From Thiomicrorhabdus sp. Kp2 (GTDB lineage: Bacteria > Pseudomonadota > Gammaproteobacteria > Thiomicrospirales > Thiomicrospiraceae): a stretch of DNA of 64,000 nucleotides. The stretch lies in NCBI RefSeq assembly GCF_000478585.1, contig NZ_ARWI01000001.1, positions 2,604,001 to 2,668,000 of the forward strand, given 5' to 3'. The first letter of the stretch is position 1. Each line of letters begins with the position of its first letter. The notes beneath the pieces were generated by a model that worked only from the letters and a program-made list of their open reading frames with translations, did not search any database and was not told the origin of the DNA. Positions 1,009-51,317 of this stretch are shown here, in pieces. A program made the position numbers and the translations under genes.

Positions 1009-1020
1009 ACCAGGCCTGGT
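1009..1020. repeat. Iterated palindrome copy 1 (ACCAGGCCTGGT)
   Basis: Exact 12-bp palindrome in the gap between rpiA and the exported protein gene at 1060. It lies 3' of the latter. Confidence 0.9.
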
Positions 1021-1059
1021 AAGACAAGCCTGATGATTGAGTTTAGTGAAAAGACACTA

Positions 1060-1557
1060 TTACGGCTTTAAAGTAGGCGATGGCTCAACTTTTGGTTTTT
1101 CTTGAACCAGTGCAGGTGGCATAGAGCCTTCTGTGCGCGGGTAAACTTCAACAATCATCCCAGACTGTGAAACGTAGTACATATCAGGGTAAATGTGTAC
1201 TGTTTTAAAGGTCATTGGACGAATCTGGCGAGATTTCTCGGCAAGAGGCTTGCCTAGATTCATATACATACCGCACATCGTCATACTGGTAACGACTTTT
1301 TTCTGTCCCATAAAGTCATGGTCTTTTTGACTAAGCTGAGAACGAAGGTCAAGCTCTTTAATATGCTCTTGGCGTTCAGCATCGCTTGTTAAGGTTGAAT
1401 AGTTAACACACAGTTCTAAAGTGCCTGATTTTGATAAAGAACCTTCACGCTCAAGTACGCGTTTAGCCGCTTCTGTTTGTGCAATCGCTGAATTGGCGAT
1501 TGCTAATGTGAAAATAAGCCCGATTGCCATAGTGGCTTGTTTAATATTGTTTTTCAT
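1060..1557 (-). CDS. Exported protein of unknown function
   Basis: The 165-residue protein has a clear signal peptide with probable cleavage after ANSAIA (residue 26), so it should be periplasmic. The mature part contains two cysteines, near residues 50 and 95, the second in a Met-rich segment TMCGMYM, and ends in a proline-rich tail. I do not recognise the family. It is the last gene of the reverse-strand copper cluster (receptor, Sco, PCuAC), 78 bases after the PCuAC gene. A role in copper handling is an inference from position and the Cys/Met content only. Confidence 0.75.
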   Translation of the reverse strand: MKNNIKQATMAIGLIFTLAIANSAIAQTEAAKRVLEREGSLSKSGTLELCVNYSTLTSDAERQEHIKELDLRSQLSQKDHDFMGQKKVVTSMTMCGMYMNLGKPLAEKSRQIRPMTFKTVHIYPDMYYVSQSGMIVEVYPRTEGSMPPALVQEKPKVEPSPTLKP

Positions 1558-1635
1558 ACAGCTCTTCTATTATTGGTCATCCATTTTTGGATTGTGAATT
1601 TCTATCGACGACAGATTTTAACAGGAAATAACAAT

Positions 1636-2187: not shown

Positions 2188-2242
2188 TTTTATTCCTGTA
2201 AATGAAGCTTGGTTTCAAATAAATAGTTAGTTATTAAATCTG

Positions 2243-2842: not shown

Positions 2843-2859
2843 GTAAATCTCTTTGTGTA

Positions 2860-2899: not shown

Positions 2900-2928
2900 T
2901 GGTGTAAAACGATATTTAATTCAGAAAA

Positions 2929-7574: not shown

Positions 7575-7586
7575 ACCAGGCCTGGT
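7575..7586. repeat. Iterated palindrome copy 2
   Basis: Exact ACCAGGCCTGGT in the convergent gap between arfB and the DUF4395-like gene. A one-mismatch copy follows 24 bases on. Confidence 0.9.
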
Positions 7587-7598: not shown

Positions 7599-7610
7599 GC
7601 CAGGCCTGGT
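7599..7610. repeat. Iterated palindrome, one-mismatch copy
   Basis: GCCAGGCCTGGT, 24 bases centre-to-centre from the exact copy at 7575. The two make a close pair in a convergent intergenic gap. Confidence 0.75.
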
Positions 7611-10610: not shown

Positions 10611-11279
10611 TTAGTTTAGGTTGTTTAACAAGATAGGAGTATGAAGGCAGCTTTGATTTAACCAGGCCTGGTTGTTTTTTAACGCTAGTTTGCCAGTGAC
10701 GAACCATTCCACCACAAGAGGGTAAGCAATATGCTCTTGTGTGTGAACTTTATTCGCTAAGCTCTCTTCTGTATCGTTTGTTTCAATAGGTACTTCAGCT
10801 TGTAAAATGACTGGCCCACCATCCAGTTCAGCCGTTACAAAGTGGATGCTCAGGCCGTGTTTTTTATCACCCGCCTCTAATGCACGTTGATGGGTGTTTA
10901 GGCCTGTATATTTAGGCAGTAATGAAGGGTGAATATTAAGCATTTTGCCTAAAAAATGTTGGGTAAAGCCAGTGGTCAAAATTCGCATAAAACCAGCCAG
11001 CACAATTAAGTCAATATTGATTGAGTCAATGGCTTTTTGTAAAACTGCATCAAAACTTTCACGAGATTCAAACTTTTTATGATCAATCACTAAGGTCTGA
11101 ATGCCTGCGTTTTGAGCGCGAGTAACGCCATAGGCGTCAGGTCGGTTAGAAATCACTAAAGCAATCTCATACAACTCAGCATGCTCTTTTTGATGGTCAA
11201 TGATGGCTTGAAGATTGGAGCCACTACCCGAGATGAGTATGGCAATTTTTTTGGGTGATAGAGTGTTCATTGATTGCAT
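10611..11279 (-). CDS. purN: Phosphoribosylglycinamide formyltransferase 1
   Basis: The enzyme transfers a formyl group from 10-formyl-THF to GAR, the third step of purine synthesis. Visible motifs are the N-terminal ISGSGSNLQAI loop, the active-site NIHPSLLPKYTG, and the DGGPVILQ segment with the catalytic Asp. ATG codons at residues 1 and 4 are both possible starts. The gene carries an iterated palindrome near its 3' end, read as NNQAWLN. It is separated from purM by 198 bases that hold two long hairpins. Confidence 0.96.
   Translation of the reverse strand: MQSMNTLSPKKIAILISGSGSNLQAIIDHQKEHAELYEIALVISNRPDAYGVTRAQNAGIQTLVIDHKKFESRESFDAVLQKAIDSINIDLIVLAGFMRILTTGFTQHFLGKMLNIHPSLLPKYTGLNTHQRALEAGDKKHGLSIHFVTAELDGGPVILQAEVPIETNDTEESLANKVHTQEHIAYPLVVEWFVTGKLALKNNQAWLNQSCLHTPILLNNLN
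10661..10672. repeat. Iterated palindrome copy 3 (inside purN)
   Basis: Exact copy within the 3' end of purN, extending to the 14-bp palindrome AACCAGGCCTGGTT. Read on the reverse strand it encodes Gln-Ala-Trp. Confidence 0.9.
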
Positions 11280-15166: not shown

Positions 15167-15232
15167 TCTCATGTTTTAGTTAACTTTAGTTAATTAAAGA
15201 TAGATTTGATTTCATTGTTAAGAGAGAAAATT

Positions 15233-15784
15233 ATGTTTAAGAGTTCCGTTTTAAATATTAAAAATCTATTTGTCTTGTGTTTAAGTAGTTTTATGCTTTT
15301 TACAAGTTACCAGGCCTGGTCAGCTGAGGATGCGTTTTTTTCGGAGACGTTTGGTAACTATCAAGAAGAGCTAGAAGTGGCTAAGGAAGATGGTAAAAAA
15401 GGGGTGTTTATCTTTTATCATATGGATGAATGTCCGTTTTGCCATCGTATGAGAACAACGATTATGACCGAGCCTGATGTCATTAAACTCTATAAAGATA
15501 ACTTTACTAACTTAATGCATGACATTGAAGGCAGCAACGAAATTACTGACTTTGATGGAACCAAAGATACCGCTCAAAATATTGCAGAGAAAAAATATCG
15601 TGTACGCGCCACACCTGTGATGATGATTTTTGATTTGGAAGGAAAGCCCGTAGTGAAATATACTGGACCTACTCGCACCAAAGAAGAGTTTAAATGGTTA
15701 GCTGAGTACGTTATTGATGGCAGTTACAAAAAAGAGTCATTCACGGCCTACAAGCGTGCTCGCAAGAAAGCGAATAGAGAATAA
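15233..15784 (+). CDS. Exported thioredoxin-fold protein (SoxW-like)
   Basis: The start at ATG 15233 is chosen because AGAGAG precedes it and the reading frame then opens with a good signal peptide; an upstream TTG lacks support. The mature protein (about 155 aa) has a redox motif CPFCHRM, and a cis-Pro segment VRATPVMMIFD. This resembles SoxW and related periplasmic thioredoxins that keep sulfur-oxidation proteins reduced. SoxW itself is not proven here, as soxB lies 46 kb away. An iterated palindrome encodes YQAWS at the signal-peptide cleavage region. Confidence 0.85.
   Translation: MFKSSVLNIKNLFVLCLSSFMLFTSYQAWSAEDAFFSETFGNYQEELEVAKEDGKKGVFIFYHMDECPFCHRMRTTIMTEPDVIKLYKDNFTNLMHDIEGSNEITDFDGTKDTAQNIAEKKYRVRATPVMMIFDLEGKPVVKYTGPTRTKEEFKWLAEYVIDGSYKKESFTAYKRARKKANRE
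15309..15320. repeat. Iterated palindrome copy 4 (inside the SoxW-like gene)
   Basis: Exact copy in the signal-peptide region, encoding Tyr-Gln-Ala-Trp-Ser. Confidence 0.9.
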
Positions 15785-17306: not shown

Positions 17307-17360
17307 TAGACGACTCGTAAGGTGATTATGATGAGTAATTTTGTATCTAAGGAAATAAAA

Positions 17361-17873
17361 GTGACTAAACAATTTAAACAAGGTTTATTCGTGAGTGCAT
17401 TATTGCTTGCCAGTAGTATGGCTTTTGCAGAAAGTACAGCGGTTAAAGTAGGGGCATTAGTTTCAGGTCAAGTGACTAAAGTGTATGTAACAGAAGGTCA
17501 GGCTGTTAAAGCAGGCGAAAAATTACTCGATTTAGACAGCAGTCGTTATCAAGCAAAATTAAGCTTATTAAAATCGCAGCAAAATATGGCTAAGTTTGCG
17601 ATGAATGATGCCAAAATTGAGCTAAATCAGGCTTTAGATTTATATGATAGAACCGTGACCTCAAAACGTACTTTAGATGCTTCTCAATTACGCTACGATT
17701 TGGCTAAAGCCGCTTATGAAAAAGCCAAGGCGGAAGTCGCTTTTCACCAGGCCTGGTCAAAATATGTATATATCAAGGCACCAGTGAATGGCAAAGTGGT
17801 TAAAATATATGCACCAGTTGGCACGACGGTATTTAAAGAAAATACCCCTATGCTTGAGTTACAGCCAGAATAA
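17361..17873 (+). CDS. Short HlyD/RND-type periplasmic adaptor
   Basis: I place the start at GTG 17361: AAGGAA lies six bases before it and the protein then opens with a textbook signal peptide ending MAFAES. ATG codons at 17328 and 17331 would add an unusual extension. The mature part holds a split lipoyl domain (VSGQVTKVYVTEGQAVKAGE and IKAPVNGKVVKIYAPVG) around a short helical hairpin. The beta-barrel and membrane-proximal domains of normal adaptors (350-400 aa) are absent. It begins about 55 bases after the TolC-like gene. An iterated palindrome encodes HQAWS near its end. Confidence 0.8.
   Translation: MTKQFKQGLFVSALLLASSMAFAESTAVKVGALVSGQVTKVYVTEGQAVKAGEKLLDLDSSRYQAKLSLLKSQQNMAKFAMNDAKIELNQALDLYDRTVTSKRTLDASQLRYDLAKAAYEKAKAEVAFHQAWSKYVYIKAPVNGKVVKIYAPVGTTVFKENTPMLELQPE
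17746..17757. repeat. Iterated palindrome copy 5 (inside the adaptor gene)
   Basis: Exact copy encoding His-Gln-Ala-Trp-Ser in the adaptor. Confidence 0.9.
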
Positions 17874-17888: not shown

Positions 17889-17900
17889 ACCAGGCCTGGT
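17889..17900. repeat. Iterated palindrome copy 6
   Basis: Exact copy 15 bases after the adaptor stop and 24 bases before the next start. It is only 143 bases from the previous copy. Confidence 0.9.
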
Positions 17901-18267: not shown

Positions 18268-19092
18268 ATGATTCAAATGGATTTGGAACAACGCCAATCC
18301 TCTCGATTCTCTCGAACTTTTCTGGTTACCAATTTAGAAGACAGTGATTTTTCATCACCTTTTGAAGGCTATGACGTTAATCTTACTGGTTTGAGTTTTT
18401 GGGTTGATGACGGAGATCTTTTTCTACCAGGCCAGGTTGTTAGTGTTTGTGTTAAAAACACTGAAAATGATGAAATCTATTGCTTAGAAGGTATTGAGGT
18501 TGTTCATCAACGGCAGCAGGGTGAAAGACTTTTGTGTGGTTGTCATATTTCACAAGTCACGAGTACACAGTTGTTAGCTCACCATAGAACATTGATGACC
18601 GATGAAAGAACGGCATTGGTTTCTATGCAAAATACTCGTTTAAACGAGTTTGATTTTGTTGAAGATGGCTCTGAATTATCGGCTGACGAAGCGGATTATC
18701 AGGAAGCCAGTATGGCACTGAATTTAGCCGTTTCTCAACTTCAAATGGGTAAAGAATGGGGTGCGAGTTTGCTTAAAGATATTGCCGATACTTTGCAAGT
18801 AGTAAACAATGAAACCTTAGATGTAGCTGAAATTCAAAACCTATTTCAACACTTCACTAAGTATTACGATCACATGAGTGATACAACGGTTGCTTTAGCT
18901 ATGCTGGCTAAATTACTTGCGCATACCCCAGATAATCCAGTAGATAAACAGGCTTGGAAAACGCTTATTGCCGATTTTGAATCTCGTTTTTTAACGGAGC
19001 AACAGCAAATTGCCTATGATTTTATGCATCAAGGAATGAGCGCAGAAGAGGCGATGAAGTTAGCCGAATCTTATCTATCCGAAAATACATAA
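18268..19092 (+). CDS. Probable PilZ-domain protein
   Basis: The 274-residue protein opens with QRQSSRFSRTF and, about 25 residues later, DVNLTGLSFW. These match the PilZ c-di-GMP-binding pattern RxxxR followed by (D/N)xSxxG, with Thr in place of Ser. The rest of the first 110 residues fits a PilZ beta-barrel. The C-terminal 150 residues are helical and unassigned. No signal peptide or membrane segment is seen, so it is cytoplasmic. A diguanylate cyclase is encoded about 5 kb downstream. Confidence 0.6.
   Translation: MIQMDLEQRQSSRFSRTFLVTNLEDSDFSSPFEGYDVNLTGLSFWVDDGDLFLPGQVVSVCVKNTENDEIYCLEGIEVVHQRQQGERLLCGCHISQVTSTQLLAHHRTLMTDERTALVSMQNTRLNEFDFVEDGSELSADEADYQEASMALNLAVSQLQMGKEWGASLLKDIADTLQVVNNETLDVAEIQNLFQHFTKYYDHMSDTTVALAMLAKLLAHTPDNPVDKQAWKTLIADFESRFLTEQQQIAYDFMHQGMSAEEAMKLAESYLSENT
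18426..18437. repeat. Iterated palindrome, one-mismatch copy
   Basis: ACCAGGCCAGGT inside the PilZ-like gene, where it encodes Pro-Gly-Gln-Val. Confidence 0.5.
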
Positions 19093-19136: not shown

Positions 19137-19988
19137 TTATTCAGCTACTAACTGTTCACAGCGATAGCGCCCATTTTTACCCGCCAGCAATGTAGCTAAT
19201 AATGGTAATGCGTCTTTGGCTTGTTTCATCAATGTCCAGGGTGGGTTAATCACAATCATACCGCTGGATGTCATACCTTTTTCTTTATCTGCTTGAATAC
19301 CGAGTTCAAACAACTGAATATTTTTAATACCACTTTTAATAAAGTCTTGCTCTATCTCATCTATACGATAGCGGTCAACTACTGGATACCAAAGGGCATA
19401 AGTACCAGTCGCAAATTTTTTATGTGCTTCAATCAGTGTTTGGGTGGCTGTTTTGTAGTCTTGTTTTACTTCATACGGCGGATCCATCAATACATAACCG
19501 CGGCGCTCTTTAGGCGGTAATTGGCTGATACAGGCGTGAAACCCATCTTTTTGAAAGGCTTTAATACGTCTGTCGCCACGAATATTTTGTAAAAGTGTTT
19601 TAAATTCACGCGGGTGAAGTTCAAATAAACTCATACGGTCGTGTTCACGTAAAATTTCTTTAGCAAACCAAGGTGAGCCAGGGTAGGTTTCTAGCGCTTG
19701 AGTTTCATTAAAGGTTTTTATTAAATCAATGTACTCGGTTACCAGGCCTGGTAAGTTGGCCTTTTCGCTTTCGGTTAGATTCCATAACTTAGCAATACCA
19801 TTTAAATATTCCTGAGTTTTTTGCGCTTCATTATCTTGAAGTGAAAAGGCCGCTGTACCAGAGTGGGTATCTAAATAAAAAACGGGTTTCGGTTTTTCTA
19901 TTAAGTAGTTAAGAATGTGGGCACTGATGCTATGTTTTAAAACATCGGCAAAGTTGCCTGCGTGAAAAGAGTGTAAATAACTCAACAT
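19137..19988 (-). CDS. rlmJ: 23S rRNA (adenine(2030)-N6)-methyltransferase RlmJ
   Basis: The 283-residue enzyme methylates A2030 of 23S rRNA. The N terminus MLSYLHSFHAGNFADVLKH is the family signature. The catalytic motif DPPYE (in YVLMDPPYEVK) and a YLDTHSGTAAF S-adenosylmethionine segment are present. Length matches E. coli RlmJ (280 aa). It converges with the PilZ-like gene and starts 18 bases from the GTPase stop, so it is probably co-transcribed with it. An iterated palindrome encodes Pro-Gly-Leu-Val inside it. Confidence 0.95.
   Translation of the reverse strand: MLSYLHSFHAGNFADVLKHSISAHILNYLIEKPKPVFYLDTHSGTAAFSLQDNEAQKTQEYLNGIAKLWNLTESEKANLPGLVTEYIDLIKTFNETQALETYPGSPWFAKEILREHDRMSLFELHPREFKTLLQNIRGDRRIKAFQKDGFHACISQLPPKERRGYVLMDPPYEVKQDYKTATQTLIEAHKKFATGTYALWYPVVDRYRIDEIEQDFIKSGIKNIQLFELGIQADKEKGMTSSGMIVINPPWTLMKQAKDALPLLATLLAGKNGRYRCEQLVAE
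19741..19752. repeat. Iterated palindrome copy 7 (inside rlmJ)
   Basis: Exact copy extending to the 16-bp palindrome TTACCAGGCCTGGTAA. On the reverse strand it encodes Pro-Gly-Leu-Val, a different frame from the Gln-Ala-Trp copies. Confidence 0.9.
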
Positions 19989-27802: not shown

Positions 27803-27824
27803 AACTTACCAGGCCTGGTAAGTT
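27803..27824. repeat. Iterated palindrome copy 9, 22-bp perfect palindrome
   Basis: The 12-bp core at 27808-27819 is extended to 22 bp (arms AACTTACCAGG and CCTGGTAAGTT). It lies in the gap between the DUF924 stop and the proS start. Confidence 0.92.
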
Positions 27825-29863: not shown

Positions 29864-29928
29864 GCAATTTCTCAACAATGAATTTTAATAAACCTATTTT
29901 AGACCTGTTTAACCTAGTCGCAAGGGCT

Positions 29929-33571: not shown

Positions 33572-35908
33572 TTAGAACTTAAAGCCTTTAAGTAGAGAGT
33601 CTTTTAGTTTATCTTCGACTTTTTTCTGAACATCTTTTACGACTTCGTCCTTTTTCTTTTCAATTTCAGCTTTGGCTTTTTCTTCAAGTAAAGAGGCTAA
33701 GTCTAAAGAGACACTTGGACTGGTTAAATCGCCTTTTAATTTAACAGGAATGGTTAAACCGTTAAGGTCTTTCAAGTCTTCACCGCCTTGACCTTTATCA
33801 GAGGCAACAATTTTGGTTTTAACCAGGTAGTTAAGTTGGTCTTTACCTAAATCAACCGTACCAGAGCCATTAACACGCATAAAAGGCGCTTGGGCTGAGA
33901 GCGTGTTGGTATTGACTATGCCATCTTTGATGGTGACATCAGCCACAAGAGAGCTAAAGTCTGTTTTAGCTTCTTTATCTTGTGTTTTGCTTGGCTTACC
34001 ACTGATTTTAGCTTGCGCATCTCGAATAGACTGAGCAAGGTTAAAGCCTTTGATTGCGCCATCTACTAAGTTGACGTTTGCTTTACCATTAAGGTTCTTT
34101 TTAAACTCGGAGACTCTTTCACCTGACGTGGTTACATCTGCATTCAGTGTGCCTGTACCACTCAATTTATCGGTATCAGCAAAAGCCATAAGCACTTCAC
34201 CAATTGGTAGGTTTTTGGTATTGGTTTTTACGCTGTATTTAGGTGTTTTCCCTCTTACATCCAGGCCTGCTATAACCACGGCTTGCGTTTTGAAAATATC
34301 GGCTTTTAACGGGTTAACCGTTAAATTGCCTTTAGCCGCTTTGGTGGCCATCACAATATTTTTTGGGTTCAGTTTGTCATAGGTTGCACTGCCAACTTTA
34401 ATGGTGCCGTTAATGGTTAATTTGCGAAGTAACTCAACAGGTAGCTCCATTTTGGCATCGGCTTCACCTTGTGTTTCTGGTGTTGTTTCAGGTTGCTCTT
34501 TTTTAGGCGGTAAATAACGACTGACATTGATTTTATTTAACGCTAAATCGTAAGCGATATTGGGGGCGTCAAATTGGCTAACAGAAGCGTTACCTGTCAG
34601 TTCGCTATCATCTAAATTAAGTTTAAGTTTATTGACTTTAAGTGCTTGTGTCTTAGATGCAAACTGCACACCTAAAGAAGCGGCAAACTTGGTTAGAGTT
34701 TTACTGTCGCTCATCTCTGGCAATGTTACTTTTAATTGCTGTAGTAGATTACGTAAGTTTGTCTCAGCAATATTTAGATTAGCGTTGACGATAGCATCAC
34801 TAGTGATTTGTGTAGCACTCACATCGCCATTGGCTGTTAAGTCTAATAGCTTTAATGAAAATTTTGGTAACTTGGCCGTTTGTGCTTTTAAATCAATATC
34901 TGCGGAGGTATTTAGTGTAATGCTTGCACTCCCATTGGGAATCGCTTCACCCGTGACATCTGAATCTAATGAAATTTGTTTTGCTTTAAAGGACTGGTTT
35001 TCAATATTCCCTGTTAAATCAGATAGGTTTAATTGGCCTTTTATGGTTTGTAATGGGAACTCTTTACCGCCAATAACATCATAATCAATAGCAAGAGAGG
35101 TTAAAGAGAGCATATTGTTTTCGAGCGAAAAACTCGGTAGTTGAACTTTGGTTGTGGCTTTTTCAACAGGGATTCCTTTCCCAGAGGTGGTGTTACTCAC
35201 CACCAAGTTACGAATAGCGTATTGACCGTCTTTTTCTAGTTTAGCTTCTAGGTTTATCGCCAGTTTGCTAGCAATCTCTGGGTTGCTGACTTTACTGTCG
35301 CCAGAAAGCGCGATACTGAAAAATTCACCAAAGGTGATGGCACCACTACTGAAATTAAGATTTTCTAAGGTTACTTTTTGTTGATTTTGTTCGTCATTCC
35401 AAGTCATTGAACCATCTTGAATATCAATACCACCAAAGTTAAGCGATGCCAATTTATCCATAGGATGGCCAGAAATTTCAGCGTCGATTTCTTCTGATTT
35501 ATCTTCTTTTGGCTTTGTGAGATCATCCCAGTTGGTTTTGCCGTCTGCATTTTTTTCTAGGTTTAATTTAAGGCCATGCAGGGTTAAAGTGTCGACTTCT
35601 AAATTTTGGCTCAGTAACGGAAGGATTGCGGCGCCTAATTGTACTTTTTCGATGCTAACGAAAGGTGTCTGGCTAAAACCTTCGGCATTACTTAAAGAGG
35701 CGGATTCTAAGTTAATTCCTAAGTGTGGAAACAGTGAAAGACTCATGCTTTCGACTTTGAAGTCGCGTCCAGTCTCTTTTTTAACTAAGGTGGTGATTTC
35801 ATCATGGTAGTCATTTGGATCAACCGTTGCCACTATTACGGCTACAGCAATGATAATTACAGCTATAAAACCAGCCAAAATTTTAAGAATTAAACCAAAC
35901 GCTTTCAT
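33572..35908 (-). CDS. AsmA-family protein
   Basis: The 778-residue protein has one N-terminal membrane helix (residues 7-29) and a long periplasmic part with the AsmA N-terminal pattern (VDPNDYHDEITTLVKKETGRDF) and C-terminal AsmA region (LVDGAIKGFNLAQSIRDAQ, then FSSLVADVTIKDGIV). AsmA-like proteins form bridge-like beta-grooves implicated in phospholipid transport between membranes. The neighbouring YdbL-YnbE-YdbH genes encode a second AsmA-like system. It ends in a Lys-rich helical tail. Confidence 0.92.
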   Translation of the reverse strand: MKAFGLILKILAGFIAVIIIAVAVIVATVDPNDYHDEITTLVKKETGRDFKVESMSLSLFPHLGINLESASLSNAEGFSQTPFVSIEKVQLGAAILPLLSQNLEVDTLTLHGLKLNLEKNADGKTNWDDLTKPKEDKSEEIDAEISGHPMDKLASLNFGGIDIQDGSMTWNDEQNQQKVTLENLNFSSGAITFGEFFSIALSGDSKVSNPEIASKLAINLEAKLEKDGQYAIRNLVVSNTTSGKGIPVEKATTKVQLPSFSLENNMLSLTSLAIDYDVIGGKEFPLQTIKGQLNLSDLTGNIENQSFKAKQISLDSDVTGEAIPNGSASITLNTSADIDLKAQTAKLPKFSLKLLDLTANGDVSATQITSDAIVNANLNIAETNLRNLLQQLKVTLPEMSDSKTLTKFAASLGVQFASKTQALKVNKLKLNLDDSELTGNASVSQFDAPNIAYDLALNKINVSRYLPPKKEQPETTPETQGEADAKMELPVELLRKLTINGTIKVGSATYDKLNPKNIVMATKAAKGNLTVNPLKADIFKTQAVVIAGLDVRGKTPKYSVKTNTKNLPIGEVLMAFADTDKLSGTGTLNADVTTSGERVSEFKKNLNGKANVNLVDGAIKGFNLAQSIRDAQAKISGKPSKTQDKEAKTDFSSLVADVTIKDGIVNTNTLSAQAPFMRVNGSGTVDLGKDQLNYLVKTKIVASDKGQGGEDLKDLNGLTIPVKLKGDLTSPSVSLDLASLLEEKAKAEIEKKKDEVVKDVQKKVEDKLKDSLLKGFKF

Positions 35909-36822: not shown

Positions 36823-39822
36823 TTATTGTTGTAGCTTTTCTTGAATACGTTTTTTGATGGTTTCACTCACTTGATTACTTAATTGCATCGTTGTAATTAA
36901 AGCGGGTAAGTCTTCTTCTAGTTGAATATTAAAATTCACTTGCCTACCATTTTCAACGCTAGGGTTTTGGCCTTTTAAATGCAATTTAAGGTGTAGTTTT
37001 TTGTCCGCGCCATAGCTGACATTGCTGTCTAGAACCGAGTAGTGAAAGTCTTCGAGTACACTGAATACCAATTTCATACTCTGGTGAGTTTGCTTCAGAC
37101 CTGAAGCGGCATGGTACTGTATTTTGCCTCCTGAAGAATCTGCTTGGATTATGCCTTTATCAAGCGTAAAAAACGGCGGTTTAATCAAATCAATACTAAA
37201 GGGAAGATTGCCGTCAATAATCCCACTGCCTTGAATCTCTGCAGATGGGTATTGTTCTAATAATGCTTTAAGGTCAATGTGAGAAAGATGGAGCTGACTA
37301 TTAATGCGTTGACTTAAATCAAAGGTTTGACTGTCTAACCAGGCCTGGCCATTAAAGAGCTGAGCATTAAATTGGGTTAATTTGAGTTTGCCTTTTAATA
37401 AAGAATCTATTGAGGTTTGATAGTTTCCAGAGAACACGACAGGGCCAAAAATCAGACCATGATTCACTTGTACTAAATTTAATTTATTAATCTCACTGTT
37501 TAAAACGCCTCGTTTTAGACTCAAGTTTAAATGGCTATCTATCTGATTTAGCGTGGTTTCATTGTAAATACCGCTTATGCCTTGCAGAGTAATTTCGGCT
37601 TTTGTATTTAGTGTGTTGAGCAAGCTTGTTTTATTATTCTGAGCCGATAGGTTTAGTTGACTATTGCCTTTGGCTTTTAGCTGACCACTGCCTAAAGTAA
37701 GCAGTTTAGGCCAATCTTTAAAAGTCTTTTGCAAAGGATTGCCTGCTAAAAAATAGATATTGGGGAGTTCCCAGTCGGCATATAAGTGAGTGGGTTTATA
37801 AAAGGCATTATGAAAAACAACCAGGCCTGCTTGGTTTGAAACGCTACCTTGTAGATTGAGTTGATTGATTGAACTCAATGTTGGTAGAAGCTCAGATTTG
37901 ATTTTACCTCGTAAAGTCCAAGAGAGAGGCTGAATATTTTGTTGTTCAAGTAAAGCTGTTTTTACAATATATTGTGAGGTGAATTGCTTTGAATGAGCTT
38001 TGTTTGAAGCTGTTTTGGGCTCAAGCTTTGACTTGGTTAAGATCGCATCCATCTTTTTAACGAATATTTTTTGGTTATCTTTAGACGAATAACCCAAGTC
38101 GGTTTTAAGGTGAATTGATTGTGCCGATGCTTCAAGTTTATCCAAAAAAACATGAAGTCCTTCGCTTTTTAGCGAGAGGTTTTTTATACCGATTTGGGTG
38201 TTATCTAACGCCAAATTTTGGTTCTTGTCTTGGTAGTTGCCAATCACATTAAGTTTCGGTATATCTAAATGGATTGCAGAGCTTTTTAGTTCACCAGTAA
38301 AAAGAAGCTCTCCAGTTTGCGCTTTGAGTAACTGTTCATGCGTCAGTGCAAGGTTGAGCTTTGAAAAAATCAGGCTTCCTTTATTTATATTTAAGTTTGG
38401 TATTTCACCCAATTGAATCATCCCTTCAGCTTGCAGCGTAGTGGGAGGGTTTGATTTTATTGAGAGTGTAAAGGGGAGTTTTTTTAGCTTATTAATGTCT
38501 GTTTGTTGTTTTTGGGTAGTGCTTGCTGAAAATGTAAAATCTTTAAACTGTTCTGTTTTTTGATGATCAAGTAATGAAATGACTAGGCTTCTTTGAAAAT
38601 GGCCATTGGCTGCTAAATGATAGGATTGAACTTCCCCCTTTTTAAGTGCGAGTGCCGCATTGATTGTGCCTTGAATTGAACCAAGAGAAGGGATTGGAAA
38701 AGGCGCGTTAAACTGGGCTTTGCTATCGCCCGAAAATTCAATGGTTTTCAATAATTCAGTTACGGTTGTTTTGTCGTTAATATTCTCAAGTGAATTCAAT
38801 TGAATGACGGCGTTGAGTACAATTTCAAAGTCTAAATTGGAGGGTAGTTTAACGGCTTGAGACTCATCTTTATTAGAGGTGTTTAGAGGTAAATAATCAC
38901 GAATAGAATCAAGCCCTAATGAATGACCGCTCCAATTTTGATAAATGTTTTGAAGGTTTTGCCAGACTTCATCTGGCGTATTTTGTTTATTGCTAGGCAG
39001 TAAACCTGCAAAATGACTGGATACGGATAATTCTTGTTGATTCGTTATCTTTCCTGTTTGTGAAAATTGCATCAGACTGGTTGTGCTAGTATCCGTTTTG
39101 ATCTCGCTTTCAAGCGAATATTCTACTAGGGTATTTGAGGCGGGAGCTTTTAGCTCTTTGGTGTGGCTAGGTATCTTGACTAAAAACTGACTTTGTATAT
39201 GTGGGCTAACAATCTCTTTATCATGGAGCTTGAAATGACCTTCTGCCTGAATGTCTGTTTGGGTGTTGAGTAGCTGTAAACCTGCAGAACCTTTAACAGA
39301 GCATGGTTTGTCTGAGCAGGGTGCTTGAATCATAAAGGAGGCAATCTCAACCTTTTGAGGTAAAAAGGCTAGCCATTCAGGTCTGTTTTGAATTGTTTGT
39401 AGTTGCGTTGTTAACGCTTTAAGCGTTGCCTGTAAAGTAGGGTTACTGTCGTTTTTAATTGGGTTTTGTGGCTTATTTAAAATAACAATCTTAACCAAAC
39501 CAATACTGACTTTGTTTGCAGAAAAAAAGGGGAACCGCTCTTTTTTGACTGAGGAATCGGCTTCAGAAAAATGAATGTTTTCTAGGTGAATATCGAGTTG
39601 GTTATTAAAGATAAAGTCAACGTGATTAAAGCGCAAGGATCCATCCTGAATGGTATCAAACTGCCACGAGTAATCGCTGATTTTTTGCTCAGTGAGTTGT
39701 TGATTGATCAAGTACAGTGCGACTGAGATTAGAATCGCAAAAAACACAATTGGCAAGAGGGCGCTTATCGCCATAAACTTTGAAATAGTCTGATATTTAA
39801 TCATTGGGTATGACACATTCAA
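36823..39822 (-). CDS. ydbH: YdbH-family AsmA-like intermembrane protein
   Basis: The 999-residue protein has one N-terminal membrane helix (about residues 16-38) and a very long periplasmic part with repeated beta-strand-rich segments. Its C-terminal region ending in NFNIQLEEDLPALITTMQLS is characteristic of YdbH. YdbH, TamB and YhdP share partly redundant roles in phospholipid supply to the outer membrane in E. coli. It heads the ydbH-ynbE-ydbL run. Two degenerate palindrome copies lie inside it. Confidence 0.9.
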   Translation of the reverse strand: MNVSYPMIKYQTISKFMAISALLPIVFFAILISVALYLINQQLTEQKISDYSWQFDTIQDGSLRFNHVDFIFNNQLDIHLENIHFSEADSSVKKERFPFFSANKVSIGLVKIVILNKPQNPIKNDSNPTLQATLKALTTQLQTIQNRPEWLAFLPQKVEIASFMIQAPCSDKPCSVKGSAGLQLLNTQTDIQAEGHFKLHDKEIVSPHIQSQFLVKIPSHTKELKAPASNTLVEYSLESEIKTDTSTTSLMQFSQTGKITNQQELSVSSHFAGLLPSNKQNTPDEVWQNLQNIYQNWSGHSLGLDSIRDYLPLNTSNKDESQAVKLPSNLDFEIVLNAVIQLNSLENINDKTTVTELLKTIEFSGDSKAQFNAPFPIPSLGSIQGTINAALALKKGEVQSYHLAANGHFQRSLVISLLDHQKTEQFKDFTFSASTTQKQQTDINKLKKLPFTLSIKSNPPTTLQAEGMIQLGEIPNLNINKGSLIFSKLNLALTHEQLLKAQTGELLFTGELKSSAIHLDIPKLNVIGNYQDKNQNLALDNTQIGIKNLSLKSEGLHVFLDKLEASAQSIHLKTDLGYSSKDNQKIFVKKMDAILTKSKLEPKTASNKAHSKQFTSQYIVKTALLEQQNIQPLSWTLRGKIKSELLPTLSSINQLNLQGSVSNQAGLVVFHNAFYKPTHLYADWELPNIYFLAGNPLQKTFKDWPKLLTLGSGQLKAKGNSQLNLSAQNNKTSLLNTLNTKAEITLQGISGIYNETTLNQIDSHLNLSLKRGVLNSEINKLNLVQVNHGLIFGPVVFSGNYQTSIDSLLKGKLKLTQFNAQLFNGQAWLDSQTFDLSQRINSQLHLSHIDLKALLEQYPSAEIQGSGIIDGNLPFSIDLIKPPFFTLDKGIIQADSSGGKIQYHAASGLKQTHQSMKLVFSVLEDFHYSVLDSNVSYGADKKLHLKLHLKGQNPSVENGRQVNFNIQLEEDLPALITTMQLSNQVSETIKKRIQEKLQQ
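37338..37349. repeat. Iterated palindrome, one-mismatch copy
   Basis: ACCAGGCCTGGC inside ydbH. Confidence 0.6.
37820..37831. repeat. Iterated palindrome, one-mismatch copy
   Basis: ACCAGGCCTGCT inside ydbH. Confidence 0.6.
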
Positions 39823-41710: not shown

Positions 41711-41722
41711 ACCAGGCCTGGT
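41711..41722. repeat. Iterated palindrome copy 11
   Basis: Exact copy 15 bases after the dgt stop, in the dgt-queG convergent gap. Confidence 0.9.
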
Positions 41723-41790: not shown

Positions 41791-42996
41791 TTATTTGAAC
41801 TTAGGTAAATAGTACTTTTTAGCGACAAAAGGTTTAATGGATTCTTTTTTAAGTCTGTTTTCAAAGTTACCAGGCCTGGTAACTTCTAAACTAGAGGTTT
41901 GATTCATTAATTCATTCTGTGCCCACTCTATGTGTTCATCAACCAGGGCGCTGATTTTGCCAAATTTTTGCTGTAAGGCTTTACTCGCCTTATCGACCGT
42001 TAGAGTGTCACCTTTTATATTGCCTATTGAAACCGCTAGATTACGATTCCATTGCTCATAACCTATTCGGCGTATTGGCGAGCCCTCAAAACGTTTTAAA
42101 AACAGTGCCTCACTCCAAGACCATAACTCAAGAAGTGTGGCAGAATCTAGTTCATGGTTCGCTTTAAAAGCCTCTTCTGCAGTGGCTTCAGTGAATTTAT
42201 TCCACGGGCAAACCAGTTGGCAATCATCGCAACCGTAAATTCGATTGCCCATAAGAGAGCGTAATTCAATAGGGATTGAACCTTTGAATTCAATGGTTAA
42301 ATAGGAGATGCAGCGACGAGCATCGACCACGGCATTATCAACAATCGCTTGTGTTGGGCACTCTTGAATACAGGCGGTGCAAGGCCCACAACCTTGCTTA
42401 GTAAAAGGTTTGTCAGCAGGGAGGTTTAAATTGGTGTAAATCTCACCAAGAAAAAACCATGAGCCAGCCCTTGGGTGAATAATAAGGCTGTTTTTACCAA
42501 TAAATCCTAACCCCGCTTTTTCAGCAATAGGGCGTTCCAAGACGGGGGCGCTGTCAGAAAAGGCACGGTAACTAAAATGTTCAGTGACCTCAGTAATTTT
42601 ATTGGCGAGGACCTGTAGTCGTTTACGCATTAGTTTATGATAATCTTTACCCAACGCATACCGAGAGATATAGGCGCTTTCACTGGAGTGAAGTTGTTGA
42701 GTGGCGTGATTAGAGTTCGAGTCAAAGTAGTTCATTCGAACACTGATAATACTTATTGTGCCTGGTTCTAACTCATTTGGGCGTGTTCTTTTTGTGCCGT
42801 GACGCTCCATATAATCCATTTCGCCATGAAAGTTTTCACCTATCCAGTTAAAATAGTTGGCTTCGTAAGCCGATAGCTGGATATCAGAAATACCAATATC
42901 CGCAAACCCAAGTTCTTTGCCCCAATCTTTTATTTGGGTGGCGAGATATTCGGGTCTGTTATTTGGCAAGTTGGGGCGGATTATGGCTTCTTTCAT
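41791..42996 (-). CDS. queG: Epoxyqueuosine reductase
   Basis: The enzyme performs the last step of queuosine tRNA modification using cobalamin and two 4Fe-4S clusters. Both cluster motifs are clear: CGPCTACIQECP near residue 205 and CDDCQLVCPWN near residue 255. The SDSAPVLERPIAEKAGLGFIG region matches the family. I chose ATG 42996 over the TTG at 43002. It diverges from tsaE, a common gammaproteobacterial pairing. The C terminus, about 20 residues beyond the family core, carries an iterated palindrome (Thr-Arg-Pro-Gly-Asn). Confidence 0.96.
   Translation of the reverse strand: MKEAIIRPNLPNNRPEYLATQIKDWGKELGFADIGISDIQLSAYEANYFNWIGENFHGEMDYMERHGTKRTRPNELEPGTISIISVRMNYFDSNSNHATQQLHSSESAYISRYALGKDYHKLMRKRLQVLANKITEVTEHFSYRAFSDSAPVLERPIAEKAGLGFIGKNSLIIHPRAGSWFFLGEIYTNLNLPADKPFTKQGCGPCTACIQECPTQAIVDNAVVDARRCISYLTIEFKGSIPIELRSLMGNRIYGCDDCQLVCPWNKFTEATAEEAFKANHELDSATLLELWSWSEALFLKRFEGSPIRRIGYEQWNRNLAVSIGNIKGDTLTVDKASKALQQKFGKISALVDEHIEWAQNELMNQTSSLEVTRPGNFENRLKKESIKPFVAKKYYLPKFK
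41864..41885. repeat. Iterated palindrome copy 12, 22-bp perfect palindrome (inside queG)
   Basis: Core 41869-41880, extended to 22 bp with arms AAGTTACCAGG and CCTGGTAACTT. It encodes Thr-Arg-Pro-Gly in a third reading frame, near the queG 3' end. Confidence 0.92.
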
Positions 42997-43129
42997 GGAC
43001 AATAGTGTATCAAATTAACAATGTTGTAATTGCACCACAACTGAGACATAAATATCTGCTTAATAGTGCGTTTACGAATACGAGTCTATCTCCTTAATCT
43101 TTAATTTTTAAAATAGGTAAATATTGCTA

Positions 43130-46068: not shown

Positions 46069-46092
46069 AAAAATGGGGTCTCAAAAAAGAAA

Positions 46093-46266: not shown

Positions 46267-46272
46267 GAAAGT

Positions 46273-46382: not shown

Positions 46383-46415
46383 TCTTACGGTAGCCACCAC
46401 ATAAGGTTAGCTGAG

Positions 46416-47438: not shown

Positions 47439-47463
47439 ATTAGCAAATCAGGACATGGAGTTT

Positions 47464-48780
47464 ATGGATCAAAATCATTTTTATCAACAGAATCGAGAAC
47501 GTCTTTTAGAAAAAATGCCAAATAATAGCGTGGCTATTATTGCTTCTGGAGAAGAACAAATACGCAATCGTGATGTCGAATTTCCTTTTAGAGCCGAAAG
47601 CGATTTTTTCTACTTAACGGGGTTTACTGAGCCTGATTCTGTGTTGTTTCTGGTTAAGCAAGAGGCAACACAAAGTGTGCTCTTTTTACGCCCTAAAGAT
47701 CCAGAGCAAGAAACTTGGCAAGGAAGACGTTTGGGAGTAGATGCCGCGTGTAATGCTTTGTTAACTGACCAGGCCTGGTCGATTGATGAATTAGAAGAGC
47801 AAGCGGTTGTTTTATTAGAAAACATTGAAAATATCTACCTTAGTTTTAGTCATTTGAACCAGTGGAGCGAATTACTAAACAGCTGGATTACGTCACTTAA
47901 ACAGAAAGTGCGAAAAGGTATTTCAGCCCCTTCAAATATCTCTGACTTGGATAAGATCCTTCATGAAATGCGTGTCTGCAAAACGCCTGAAGAAATTGAG
48001 CGTATGCGTCATGCGGCTCAAATTTCGGTAAAGGGTCATTTAGCGGCAATGCGTGCTGTTTTAGAATGTGATTATGAGTATCAGGTTCAAGCGGCCTTAG
48101 AAGCCGAATTTGTTAGGCAAGGTTCACCAAGAGTGGCGTTTAGTTCAATTGTCGCTTCGGCTGAAAATGCTTGTATTTTGCACTATACAGAAAATCGTTC
48201 AGAAATTAATAAACAAGCTTTATTGCTTGTTGATGCGGGTGCAGAATGGGCGGGTTATGCGGGGGATATCACCACAACATTTCCTGCAAGTGGTCACTTT
48301 TCAGAAGCTCAAGCGTTACTTTATAGCCTGGTTTTAAAAGCCCAACGAGCAGCAATTGAAGTGATTAAACCAAATGTTAGTTATGACCAGGCTCACCAAG
48401 CTTCGGTTAAGGTGTTAACAGCAGGCCTGGTAGAGTTGGGTATATTGCAAGGTGATACCGATGAACTGATTAAAGCTGAAGCTTATAAGCCCTTTTTTAT
48501 GCATGGTACTGGGCATTGGTTAGGAATGGATGTGCATGATGTGGGTGAGTATAAAATCAACCAGCAATGGCGTGATTTTAAACCTGGAATGGTCGTAACG
48601 GTTGAACCAGGCATGTATATTTCTGCTGAACATGAGAGTGTTGATGGTAAGTGGCATAATATTGGTATTCGTATTGAAGATGATATTTTGGTTACTAAAT
48701 CGGGTCATGAAGTTTTAACAAAAGGGTTACCAAGAACGGTTAAAGAGATTGAGGCTTGGATGGCCTCTTGTGGCGATTAG
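47464..48780 (+). CDS. pepP: Xaa-Pro aminopeptidase
   Basis: This metallopeptidase removes an N-terminal residue next to proline. It has the AMP_N domain (residues about 5-130) and a pita-bread peptidase domain. Metal ligands are visible: VDAGAEWAGYAGDITTTFP, the His in MHGTGHWLGMDVHD, and Glu residues in VEPGMY and GIRIEDDI. A second ATG at 47455 is possible, but GGAG sits just before 47464. An iterated palindrome encodes DQAWS near residue 104. Order ygfB-pepP-ubiH-ubiI is conserved. Confidence 0.95.
   Translation: MDQNHFYQQNRERLLEKMPNNSVAIIASGEEQIRNRDVEFPFRAESDFFYLTGFTEPDSVLFLVKQEATQSVLFLRPKDPEQETWQGRRLGVDAACNALLTDQAWSIDELEEQAVVLLENIENIYLSFSHLNQWSELLNSWITSLKQKVRKGISAPSNISDLDKILHEMRVCKTPEEIERMRHAAQISVKGHLAAMRAVLECDYEYQVQAALEAEFVRQGSPRVAFSSIVASAENACILHYTENRSEINKQALLLVDAGAEWAGYAGDITTTFPASGHFSEAQALLYSLVLKAQRAAIEVIKPNVSYDQAHQASVKVLTAGLVELGILQGDTDELIKAEAYKPFFMHGTGHWLGMDVHDVGEYKINQQWRDFKPGMVVTVEPGMYISAEHESVDGKWHNIGIRIEDDILVTKSGHEVLTKGLPRTVKEIEAWMASCGD
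47768..47779. repeat. Iterated palindrome copy 13 (inside pepP)
   Basis: Exact copy extending to the 14-bp palindrome GACCAGGCCTGGTC. It encodes Asp-Gln-Ala-Trp-Ser. Confidence 0.9.
48420..48431. repeat. Iterated palindrome, one-mismatch copy
   Basis: AGCAGGCCTGGT inside pepP, encoding Ala-Gly-Leu-Val. Confidence 0.55.
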
Positions 48781-48834
48781 TTAATATTTTCGAATAGGCT
48801 GTAACGAATCAAATAGAACTGGGCAAATATATTG

Positions 48835-50064
48835 ATGACAAATAAACCAAACCAAACTGAAACTTACCAGGCTGATGTTTTTATTGCAGGAGGCGGTCCT
48901 GTCGGGCTTATGCTTGCTATTGGGCTGTCTCGTTTGGGCAAAAAAGTCGTTTTAGCTGAACGTTTTATGCCTAAAAAGAATGATTTTGAAGAGGCTCAAA
49001 ATTCATTTGATGGCCGCGTTTTGGCTTTATCGAAAGGTTCACAAACCTTTCTTGAAGAGATTGGTGTTTGGCAAACGTTAAAGCCTTTTACCACGTCCAT
49101 TGAGCATATTCATGTGTCACAAAAAGGTTACATGGGGATTACCACTCTGCATGCAGAAGAGGTGGATGTGGATGCGCTAGGTTTTAGTGTGCAGTCGAGT
49201 GATTTAGGTGCCGTTTTATGGACGTTAGCCAATCAAGAAGAGAATATCCGTTTACTTTGCCCTGCTGTATTAGAAAGTTTTGTTGAGTCCGATGATGCTG
49301 TTCAAATAACAGTGGCATTAAATCCTGAGCAAGAAGGGCAGGTTATTTATAAGGTTTCTGCCCAGCTGATTGTAGGCGCAGATGGAACGCAATCTAAAGT
49401 AAGAGAGATTTTAGGTCTTGAGATTGAAGAGAAGTCTTATGATGCGTTTGGTGTTTTGGCACAAATAGAGACTGAGCTGCATCCTAACGGATGGGCGTAT
49501 GAACGTTTTACAACAGAAGGGCCTGTTGCTTTATTGCCTATGTTTGGCCATTCACATAAAGCCGTTTTGGTTTGCTCAGCACAACAAGTGGCTGATATTC
49601 AAGCTTTATCTGATGAAGAGTATATTGCATTATTCACTGCCAAAATGGGCGAGCGTTTAGGTCGTTTTGTCAAAATAAGTCCACGTATTGTATATCCATT
49701 AAAAGAAACCTATGTTCCGCAAATGACAAAAGGGCGTGCGGTATTGATGGGAAATGCTTCACATACTCAACACCCAGTTGCCGCACAAGGTTTAAATTTA
49801 GGTATTAGAGATATCGAGGTTTTTCTACAAGGTTTATCTGAATGTGAAGGTTTAGGTGAGCAGGCCTGGTTAAATGATTATGCAAAAAGTCGTGCTCCTG
49901 ATCATGAGAAGGTAATGGGGTTAACCGATGGCTTAATTCAAATTTTTCAACACTCTTCTCCATTAGTTGGTCACCTAAGAGGTATCGGTTTAATGGCAAT
50001 GCAAGCAATGCCTGGTTTAAAACGCCGTTTTTCAAAATTTGCAATGAGAGGTAGCCGAGCATGA
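48835..50064 (+). CDS. ubiH: FAD-dependent ubiquinone hydroxylase UbiH
   Basis: The protein (about 409 aa) hydroxylates the ring of a ubiquinone precursor. It has the FAD dinucleotide fold VFIAGGGPVGLMLAIGLSRLG near the N terminus and LIVGADGTQSKVRE near residue 180. A third FAD motif, VLMGNASHTQHPVAAQGLN, lies near residue 304. ATG 48835 is chosen over the TTG at 48832. The last four bases overlap the next gene (ATGA), so translation is coupled. Which of the paired paralogues does which position is inferred from gene order. Confidence 0.9.
   Translation: MTNKPNQTETYQADVFIAGGGPVGLMLAIGLSRLGKKVVLAERFMPKKNDFEEAQNSFDGRVLALSKGSQTFLEEIGVWQTLKPFTTSIEHIHVSQKGYMGITTLHAEEVDVDALGFSVQSSDLGAVLWTLANQEENIRLLCPAVLESFVESDDAVQITVALNPEQEGQVIYKVSAQLIVGADGTQSKVREILGLEIEEKSYDAFGVLAQIETELHPNGWAYERFTTEGPVALLPMFGHSHKAVLVCSAQQVADIQALSDEEYIALFTAKMGERLGRFVKISPRIVYPLKETYVPQMTKGRAVLMGNASHTQHPVAAQGLNLGIRDIEVFLQGLSECEGLGEQAWLNDYAKSRAPDHEKVMGLTDGLIQIFQHSSPLVGHLRGIGLMAMQAMPGLKRRFSKFAMRGSRA
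49859..49870. repeat. Iterated palindrome, one-mismatch copy
   Basis: AGCAGGCCTGGT inside ubiH, encoding Gln-Ala-Trp. Confidence 0.55.
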
Positions 50065-51317
50065 GTGGTGAATCTATTCAAACTGAAGGTTTAAAAAACA
50101 GTGTTTGGGATGTTGTTGTTGTGGGCGGCGGGATGGTTGGTGCTGCAACAGCTTTAGGCTTAGGTCAACAGGGTATAAAGGTTCTTTTGCTAGAGAATAA
50201 GCCTGTTGATTTGCAGTGGAGTTCTGAAAAGCCTTATCAAGTTCGAGTGAGTGCTTTAACGCGAGCTTCTGAAAAAATTTTAAAAAACTTAGGTGCTTGG
50301 GCGGGTATTGAAAAAAGGCGCTATCACCCCTTCACGGCTATGCATGTTTGGGATGAAGTGACGCCAGGTGAGGTACATTTTTCTGCTCAAGATATGAACG
50401 AGCCAAACCTAGGTTATACCGTTGAAAATGATGTTATTCAAGCGGCCTTGTGGGAGCAAGTTGAAGCTTGCGATATGATTAAAGTGCTATTTGGCGTGAA
50501 TATTGAAGCCTTAGATTTTAAAAATAACCAGGCCTGGTTAACCTTAGAGAATATCGGTTGTTTAAAAACAGAATTAGTTATTGGTGCGGACGGTGCTTTT
50601 TCAAAGATACGTCAGTTAGCTAATATTGGTTTAGATACCCATGATTATGAGCAGTGCGCAGTGGTGGGTTGTGTTAGGACTGAACTGTCAAATCAAGATA
50701 CTTGCTGGCAACGTTATACCCAAAATGGCCCCTTTGCCTTTTTATCGATGGGGGATAATGTCAGCTCAATTGCTTGGTATTTACCAATGGATAAAATGCA
50801 GTGGGCATTAGGGTTGTCAGACGAAGAGTTTGCAAAAGAAATATCCCAAGCATCGGATTATCGTTTGGGGCAGGTGGTTGAAGTTGCAGAAAGAGGGGCT
50901 TTTCCATTGGTTAGAAGGCATGCTGAACACTATGTAAAGTCGAACCTCGCTTTAGTGGGGGATGCGGCTCATACAATTCACCCTCAAGCTGGTCAGGGGG
51001 TTAATTTAGGCCTGTTAGATGCGGCCGCGCTGGTGGAGGTTATCATTAACGCTAAAGATGCGTCTAAGCGTTGGGGTAGTTTTTCTGTTTTAAGAAAGTA
51101 TGAGCGATGGCGTCGTGGAGATAATGCTTTAGTTCAAAGGTCGATGGAAGGTTTTGACTGGTTATTTAAACAAGACGCCTCTCTTAAAACGGTCTTTAGA
51201 AAGCCATTTTTACCGATGGCGAATAAGTTGACTTTTGTTAAAAATTGGTTGATGGGGCAAGCTTTAAATGGTCGTGAAGCTCTACCAAGGCTCGCTAAAA
51301 ATTTTCCTAAAAGCTAA
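50061..51317 (+). CDS. ubiI: FAD-dependent ubiquinone hydroxylase UbiI/VisC type
   Basis: The 418-residue protein is a paralogue of UbiH. FAD motifs: VVVVGGGMVGAATALGLGQQG near residue 18, LVIGADGAFSKIRQ near residue 175, and LVGDAAHTIHPQAGQGVNLG near residue 298. It should hydroxylate another position of the ubiquinone ring; UbiF-type activity is an alternative. It overlaps ubiH by four bases. An iterated palindrome encodes NNQAWLT. Confidence 0.9.
   Translation: MSGESIQTEGLKNSVWDVVVVGGGMVGAATALGLGQQGIKVLLLENKPVDLQWSSEKPYQVRVSALTRASEKILKNLGAWAGIEKRRYHPFTAMHVWDEVTPGEVHFSAQDMNEPNLGYTVENDVIQAALWEQVEACDMIKVLFGVNIEALDFKNNQAWLTLENIGCLKTELVIGADGAFSKIRQLANIGLDTHDYEQCAVVGCVRTELSNQDTCWQRYTQNGPFAFLSMGDNVSSIAWYLPMDKMQWALGLSDEEFAKEISQASDYRLGQVVEVAERGAFPLVRRHAEHYVKSNLALVGDAAHTIHPQAGQGVNLGLLDAAALVEVIINAKDASKRWGSFSVLRKYERWRRGDNALVQRSMEGFDWLFKQDASLKTVFRKPFLPMANKLTFVKNWLMGQALNGREALPRLAKNFPKS
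50527..50538. repeat. Iterated palindrome copy 14 (inside ubiI)
   Basis: Exact copy extending to the 16-bp palindrome TAACCAGGCCTGGTTA. It encodes Asn-Gln-Ala-Trp-Leu. Confidence 0.9.

Follow-up and report, generated by a model that had tools for sequence, protein, structure and literature searches.

Why should a single 12-bp palindrome recur along a stretch of bacterial DNA, in genes and between them alike? The question is raised by 64,000 nucleotides of the genome of Thiomicrorhabdus sp. Kp2 (genome G000, a single 2,725,706-base contig; the stretch, G000:C1:2604001-2668000, is called the window below), for which an original prediction had listed 14 exact and six one-mismatch copies of the word ACCAGGCCTGGT and had offered the cyanobacterial highly iterated palindrome HIP1, DNA uptake sequences and nucleoid-protein sites as analogues. 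We describe here the abundance, anatomy, placement and distribution of this word, which is iterated genome-wide, replaced by other words in some relatives and absent from others. Among the three analogues, the best fit is with uptake signals, given the dialects, the patchy presence and the gene-end bias of the word, and a nucleoid-type protein is retained as a rival. Our best reading is a DNA-uptake-signal-like system with dialects, to which we give a probability of about 0.5.

A symmetric word is iterated throughout the Kp2 genome

The 14 exact and six one-mismatch positions were all confirmed in the window; over 100 dinucleotide shuffles, matches with zero or one mismatch averaged 0.07, with a maximum of 1. 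The window is no outlier, as the 2.73 Mb genome holds 557 copies of ACCAGGCCTGGT and none of a reversed-letter control. Detailed analysis covered 1.264 Mb, or 46% of the genome (0-600 kb, 1,260-1,860 kb and the 64-kb window), and there 252 copies were observed against Markov expectations of 0.03, 0.04, 0.13, 0.17, 0.69 and 15.5 for orders 0 to 5, the last of which already includes the motif's own words; even at order 3 (0.17) the count thus lies far above expectation, as is the case for uptake sequences. The eight-letter core CAGGCCTG occurs 534 times in the same 1.264 Mb at similar density throughout, with 264 copies in the first region, 248 in the second and 22 in the window. When the 534 cores were aligned in both orientations, the motif proved to be symmetric and about 22 bp long, AAnTTACCAGGCCTGGTAAnTT, and positions farther than about 11 bp from the dyad were almost uninformative.

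The core is strict. Among 145 one-mismatch 12-mers in the 1.264 Mb, 138 are changed in one of the two outermost letters of an arm and seven in the core, and as three control 12-mers had 0, 0 and 1 one-mismatch neighbours, the seven core variants are only slightly above chance. Because loss of a core letter is so rarely seen as a standing intermediate, we infer that each site is under strong selection or drive. Even spacing was not seen, the coefficient of variation in three regions being 0.70-1.26, about random. The longest core-free gap in the sampled sequence spans 20.8 kb (G000:C1:1376652-1397483) and is possibly an acquired region. As observations on a palindrome, these facts are firm and unusual.

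The word occurs as dialects and is absent from some congeners

Word counts were obtained for 58 genomes including G000, 21 of which lie outside the family. The window's PhoH-like protein has named relatives in Thiomicrorhabdus (80-85% identity), Hydrogenovibrio (81%) and Thiomicrospira (76%). Twelve of the 58 genomes contain 181-718 copies of ACCAGGCCTGGT: G000 (557), G007 (399), G009 (454), G010 (197), G015 (446), G016 (498), G019 (718), G022 (488) and G028 (333), and, in other genera of the family, G033 (289), G035 (181) and G036 (400). Five genomes (G005, G006, G008, G018 and G026) have intermediate counts of 16-84, G002 has 6, and the remainder have 0-2, with 0-1 in the 21 genomes outside the family. 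In G036, a segment of about 83 kb (G036:C1:209049-292354) is without a listed copy, against one per 5-6 kb or so elsewhere in that genome, and may be a recently acquired island.

Some of these relatives carry an alternative word. The dialects of G024 and G000 are mutually exclusive: G024 contains 1025 copies of ACCGGCCGGT (control, 1) and no ACCAGGCCTGGT, G000 contains 557 copies of ACCAGGCCTGGT and no ACCGGCCGGT, and ACCGGCCGGT reaches at most 20 copies in each of the other 57 genomes. In G005 and G018, which belong to the same genus as G000, and in G026, the core CAGGCCTG is combined with different, AACAGGCCTGTT-like arms (17 cores in 60 kb of G005, 64 in 260 kb of G018 and 24 in 60 kb of G026). 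G021 has an asymmetric word, AAAAAACTCAACAGGCCGGGT, with an A-tract on one side only, and ACAGGCCGG is present 14 times in 40 kb. No such word was found among the top 8-mers of G003, G014, G020, G025, G027 and G031 (40-60 kb each). The dialect calls for G005, G026 and G021, like the calls of absence, are based on 40-60 kb per genome; the 8-mer survey of G020 was made once with and once without L143 (G020:C1:100001-120000), a piece filled by the GC-rich repeat CTCGCTGCCGCC..., 98 copies in 20 kb, perhaps belonging to one very repetitive gene. Logos of the motifs of G000, G024 and G018 have in common a central GGCC and A/T blocks that end about 11-12 bp from the dyad, and differ in the letters between. 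Dialects among related species are a property of uptake sequences, and replacement of an iterated palindrome by alternates in relatives is one of highly iterated palindromes.

In a tree of 21 rows built from one protein, ProS, in which six of 18 inner branches are well supported, the clade of G000, G022, G015, G016 and G009 is uniform in dialect, G024 groups with three motif-less genomes (G025, G020 and G027), and G014 and G031, likewise motif-less, form a sister pair; as a single-gene tree, it is weak evidence on the history of the word. Site retention was assessed by aligning positions 10-42 kb of the window with 20-kb pieces around proS of 20 relatives, two gapped alignments being dropped. 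Of 17 same-dialect alignments over an exact G000 12-mer, 12 retain the 12-mer and 14 the core at an overall identity of 71-76%, whereas the 12-mer is retained in one of nine alignments with other-dialect or motif-less genomes (G005 at 29472; p 0.011). This pattern is supportive, not proof, as same-dialect relatives are closer on average and some sites were counted in several relatives. The copies in the window, with the relatives that retain them, are as follows (window coordinates; no strand assigned).

1009..1020, exact ACCAGGCCTGGT, intergenic
7575..7586, exact 12-mer, between convergent genes; a second core lies 24 bp away
7599..7610, GCCAGGCCTGGT, intergenic; outer mismatch, core intact
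10661..10672, exact 12-mer, inside open reading frame (ORF) 10611-11279
15309..15320, exact 12-mer, inside ORF 15206-15784
17746..17757, exact 12-mer, inside ORF 17322-17873; retained in G015 and G016 (same dialect); not retained in G022 or in G003, G014 and G031, which lack the motif
17889..17900, exact 12-mer, intergenic; retained in G016, not in G015
18426..18437, ACCAGGCCAGGT, one-mismatch copy with a broken core
19741..19752, exact 12-mer, inside ORF 19137-19988; retained in G022, G015 and G016, not in motif-less G003
25150..25161, exact 12-mer, across the 3' end of minus-strand ORF 25148-25801; core retained in G022, lost in G009
27808..27819, exact 12-mer, intergenic; retained in G022
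29472..29483, exact 12-mer, inside ORF 29087-29878; 12-mer retained in G022, G015, G016, G009 and G005, core in G028
30845..30856, extra core CAGGCCTG as ACCAGGCCTGCC
34260..34271, extra core CAGGCCTG as TCCAGGCCTGCT
37338..37349, ACCAGGCCTGGC, core intact
37820..37831, ACCAGGCCTGCT, core intact
41711..41722, exact 12-mer, intergenic, between convergent genes
41869..41880, exact 12-mer, inside ORF 41791-43002; retained in G019
47768..47779, exact 12-mer, inside ORF 47455-48780
48420..48431, AGCAGGCCTGGT, core intact
49859..49870, AGCAGGCCTGGT, core intact
50527..50538, exact 12-mer, inside ORF 50061-51317
60563..60570, extra core CAGGCCTG, inside ORF 57608-61495

The copy at 18426..18437 is probably not functional, since its core is broken and the core is elsewhere strict.

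Copies are concentrated between genes, above all between convergent genes

Gene context was taken from a greedy longest-ORF set (ORFs of at least 90 amino acids) rather than from annotation. In this set, five of the 14 exact window copies are intergenic (1009, 7575, 17889, 27808 and 41711), the other nine are within or across ORFs, and the base before the copy is T in eight of 14, all as first described. Across the 1.264 Mb, 132 12-mers fall in 163 kb of intergenic DNA and 120 in 1,101 kb of coding DNA, a 7.4-fold higher density between ORFs, and the odds ratio for convergent versus divergent gaps is 3.7 (p 4e-6). The density of cores is 1.87 per kb in convergent gaps, 1.01 and 1.30 in tandem gaps, 0.46 in divergent gaps and 0.33 in coding sequence. 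Genes nonetheless accommodate 48% of 12-mers and 67% of cores, in all frames: the 359 coding cores are divided 215/108/36 among the three reading frames, the most used of which translates as x-P-G-L-V. The use of at least three frames, and the view that neither a protein motif nor a single mobile element accounts for the word, are therefore borne out by this distribution and by the almost uninformative flanks beyond about 11 bp. Repetitive extragenic palindromes, bacterial interspersed mosaic elements and other mobile short repeats were likewise rejected, with 120 of 252 12-mers coding and flanks that hold almost no information beyond about 11 bp.

Some intergenic copies extend into longer inverted repeats. 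Perfect stems are longer at intergenic than at coding 12-mers (p 3e-6), the arms covary at intergenic cores, and AAAAGCCGTTTTACCAGGCCTGGTAAAACGGCTTTT is an example of a long intergenic stem; 40 of the 132 intergenic copies have no extension beyond the 12-mer. Runs of T adjoin 40 of 132 intergenic and 27 of 120 coding 12-mers, a difference that is not significant (p 0.20), and 540 of 3000 random intergenic places. At the first letter beyond the 12-mer, the arms of coding cores in G000 also agree more often than expected (162 versus 127, z 4.3), even inside genes.

A candidate DNA-uptake-signal system

The dialects, the absences in congeners, the tolerance of copies inside genes, the gene-end bias, the A/T blocks beside a strict core and the asymmetric variant of G021 all resemble features of uptake signals. 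By analogy with these, a DNA receptor at the cell surface, probably borne by a retractile type IV pilus of the mannose-sensitive haemagglutinin (MSHA) type, would bind DNA that carries the word, contacting the strict core CAGGCCTG and, roughly a helical turn away on either side, the A/T blocks. Word-bearing fragments would then enter through ComEC and recombine into the chromosome of a transformable strain, so that the word would build up wherever coding allows, mostly between genes, where part of the copies may extend into longer hairpin-forming inverted repeats. A shift in receptor specificity would lead the genome to be rewritten to a new dialect by drive, and loss of the receptor would leave the words to decay. 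More tentatively, and at somewhat below even odds, this could be a third, independently evolved uptake-signal system, that of the Thiomicrospira/Thiomicrorhabdus family, with a true palindrome read by a new kind of dimeric receptor, and with four or more dialects (including an asymmetric one) and outright losses within one genus.

The two established systems offer parallels. The DNA uptake sequences (DUS) of Neisseriaceae, in the passages of PMC3630211 that concern them, likewise have many genome-wide copies, species dialects with a common fixed part and many coding copies, and part of PMC1939737 places 35% of the DUS words of N. gonorrhoeae in ORFs. A precedent for a palindromic arrangement is found in Simonsiella, for which the same portion of PMC3630211 gives 1294 DUS as overlapping dyad pairs. 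In G000, however, the palindrome is obligatory, the genus has no ComP_DUS match over the cut-off and the bacteria belong to a different class; compared with kingDUS (5918 copies in 2.4 Mb, according to that portion of PMC3630211), the word is about 6 times (core) to 12 times (12-mer) sparser. The uptake signal sequence (USS) of Pasteurellaceae also consists of a core plus discontinuous A/T-rich regions (excerpt of PMC12616744), and inverted USS pairs make terminators in H. influenzae (excerpt of PMC5217627). The USS is described as non-palindromic in that excerpt of PMC12616744, whereas the words here are symmetric except in G021, and no PpdA/ComN-type receptor was identified in the parts of G000, G018 and G024 that were searched. 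Text searches of the open-licence PMC literature returned no paper for the 12-mer and one unrelated paper for CAGGCCTG, AGGCCTGG, ACCGGCCGGT and AACAGGCCTG, and no description of this word system was found among the matches listed in broader searches of open-licence PMC papers.

Of the competence machinery that uptake would need, a comEC gene (PF03772) was found in 36 of the 40 genomes searched (G025-G036 lay outside this search) and in 23 of 25 within the genus, being missing in the drafts G004 and G006. The PilT family exceeds the cut-off in 50 of 58 genomes, G000 having a neighbouring PilT/PilU-family pair. G000 also encodes a secretin over the MshL cut-off, adjoining genes that resemble PilB/GspE and GspF (below cut-off) and one with a prepilin-type N-terminus. 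A pilus that could carry a receptor appears to be present in G000, and none of the searches found a receptor; E. coli PpdA, PpdB and PpdC had no tblastn match in the sequence covered, about 46% of G000 together with portions of G018 and G024. Runs of ORFs resembling Tad-type (TadA-like, below cut-off), type II secretion (GspD over cut-off) and MSHA-type (MshL over cut-off) systems lie within about 130 kb of one another in G000, at about 1.70-1.84 Mb (L238, L243 and L244).

Several observations weigh against an uptake system. comEC is also present in motif-less G003, G014 and G020, and therefore does not track the word, and a PilT-family match over the cut-off is lacking in the complete genome G035 (181 copies), as is any PilT-family match in G010 (86% complete, 197 copies). 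ComP_DUS (PF16732) exceeds the cut-off in none of 32 genus genomes, its one sub-threshold match being in motif-less G020, so that no ComP-type receptor was recognised in this set; FimT/GspH (PF12019) passes in three of the 32 (G011, G020 and G027), in which the word occurs 0-2 times; and PilM_2 matches are weak in 28 of the 32 (E 7.9e-9 to 1.9e-4), the strongest being FtsA, so no PilM was clearly shown. ComP, FimT/GspH and PilM were thus set aside as markers of receptor machinery. One-off core variants number 7 beside 252 perfect copies, many fewer than the one-mutation DUS counted in the relevant part of PMC3630211. In G000, single half-sites show no enrichment (81 lie outside the palindrome, against 29-79 for five control words and a Markov expectation of 78), which rules out the half-site as the unit there and is unlike a monomeric uptake word. 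The dyad, the lack of single half-sites and the missing receptor are all predictions of a cytoplasmic dimer. Finally, no report of transformation in this group was found among the matches listed in literature searches.

Alternative explanations

The main rival is an intracellular, chromosome-binding dimer. Helix-turn-helix dimers bind dyad sites with A/T contacts one turn out, and the dyad symmetry over about 22 bp, the A/T blocks one turn out and the strict core of the Kp2 motif suit an abundant cytoplasmic homodimer, whether nucleoid-associated, boundary-forming or transcription-blocking, that would organise the chromosome or insulate convergent genes and whose specificity would have shifted, or which would have been lost, in some species. 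The enrichment of cores in convergent gaps and their scarcity in divergent ones, the strong retention in same-dialect relatives, the half-site counts and the similar core density in two 600-kb regions (264 and 248) point the same way. Against this stand the large share of copies within genes in all frames (48% of 12-mers and 67% of cores), the asymmetric word of G021 and the fact that no candidate protein was identified; moreover, one would not expect the word of a chromosome organiser to be missing from congeners or to change across a whole genome. The sites of SlmA, Noc and MatP, which are palindromic nucleoid-occlusion or macrodomain sites, share the binding-site-like anatomy, but the Kp2 word has 557 exact copies, half of them coding, is absent from some congeners and has no large regional exclusion in the sampled 46% of G000. 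On balance we regard such a dimer as an unlikely explanation, albeit one to be taken seriously.

A different origin would require no selection on the word itself. Under Elhai's model of mismatch repair directed by methyl-C, a HIP1-like word could arise from a repair bias linked to a methyltransferase, and G000 does encode a C5 methyltransferase (L119:504-2538, near 1.92 Mb) whose best solved relative is M.HaeIII, an enzyme that recognises GGCC. This enzyme has an extra N-terminal stretch, and its gene is oriented divergently to one that weakly matches a type II restriction enzyme; because of this neighbour and the closeness to M.HaeIII, the two look like an ordinary restriction-modification pair. 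The profile search covered the C5 (PF00145) and N4/N6 (PF01555) families. Among the 12 genomes with at least 181 copies, PF00145 was found in four (G000, G007, G009 and G019) and PF01555 exceeded the cut-off in two, G000 and G035. Neither family did so in the other seven (G010, G015, G016, G022, G028, G033 and G036), of which G016 has a marginal PF00145 match lying in an open frame whose ORF is without a Pfam match, G036 a sub-threshold PF01555 match with a stop, and G010 is 86% complete. A frequent word is thus not consistently accompanied by a matching methyltransferase of either family, and for those seven of the 12 both families were rejected as a common cause. The original prediction had also pointed to two back-to-back CCWGG (Dcm) sites within the word. 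This hint found no support as a cause: Vsr is present in none of the 12 and a C5 methyltransferase in only four, and the dialects ACCGGCCGGT and AACAGGCCTGTT lack CCWGG. With Vsr absent and seven genomes without PF00145 or PF01555 over the cut-off, Dcm/Vsr very-short-patch repair and those methylases are therefore not the explanation. HIP1 and the alternate HIPs of cyanobacteria do resemble the present words in being iterated palindromes with a constant centre (GATC in HIP1, GGCC here), alternates in relatives and deviations at the outer positions (as set out in part of PMC4390886). The G000 motif differs in being longer, with A/T blocks, and in its strong intergenic and convergent bias, and its high-copy relatives have no consistent C5 or N4/N6 methyltransferase; as methylation-linked repair leaves both the 22-bp footprint and the gene-end bias unexplained, we consider it improbable.

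The longer intergenic stems (p 3e-6), their arm covariation and the occasional long stem would suit a bidirectional transcription terminator spread by selection at gene ends. T-runs are more frequent at intergenic 12-mers than at random intergenic places, but not significantly more than at coding ones (40/132 versus 27/120), 40 of 132 intergenic copies stop at the 12-mer and half of the 12-mers are coding. These counts do not support a pure terminator role, which we judge very improbable; some intergenic copies may double as stems of terminators or hairpins, and termination is more likely a secondary use of existing copies.

The word is also carried by phage-like DNA. The exact 16-mer TTACCAGGCCTGGTAA matched four stretches in IMG/VR once each, three of which hold one core. 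The fourth, L279 (IMGVR_UViG_3300005470_000015; 8269 of 31169 bases examined), has four cores and two 12-mers in 8.3 kb, about the density of G000, together with matches to O-like replication initiation, P-like helicase loader and exonuclease genes, as in lambda-like phage replication; at least one temperate-phage-like contig therefore carries the word at about the G000 density. L279 does not separate uptake from a chromosome-binding dimer, as residence as a prophage would give it the word under either.

Significance

In the literature considered here, dialects of uptake signals belong to Neisseriaceae and Pasteurellaceae. In a single genus of sulfur oxidisers, a palindromic word system that changes or disappears from species to species would provide a natural series for the rise, shift and decay of a genome-wide recognition word. 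The contrast in gene content between G024, with its 1025 copies of ACCGGCCGGT, and its motif-less sisters G025, G020 and G027 should expose the causal gene. The system would help to tell whether iterated palindromes arise from uptake drive, from methylation-linked repair or from chromosome-protein binding, a question that is still open for HIP1.

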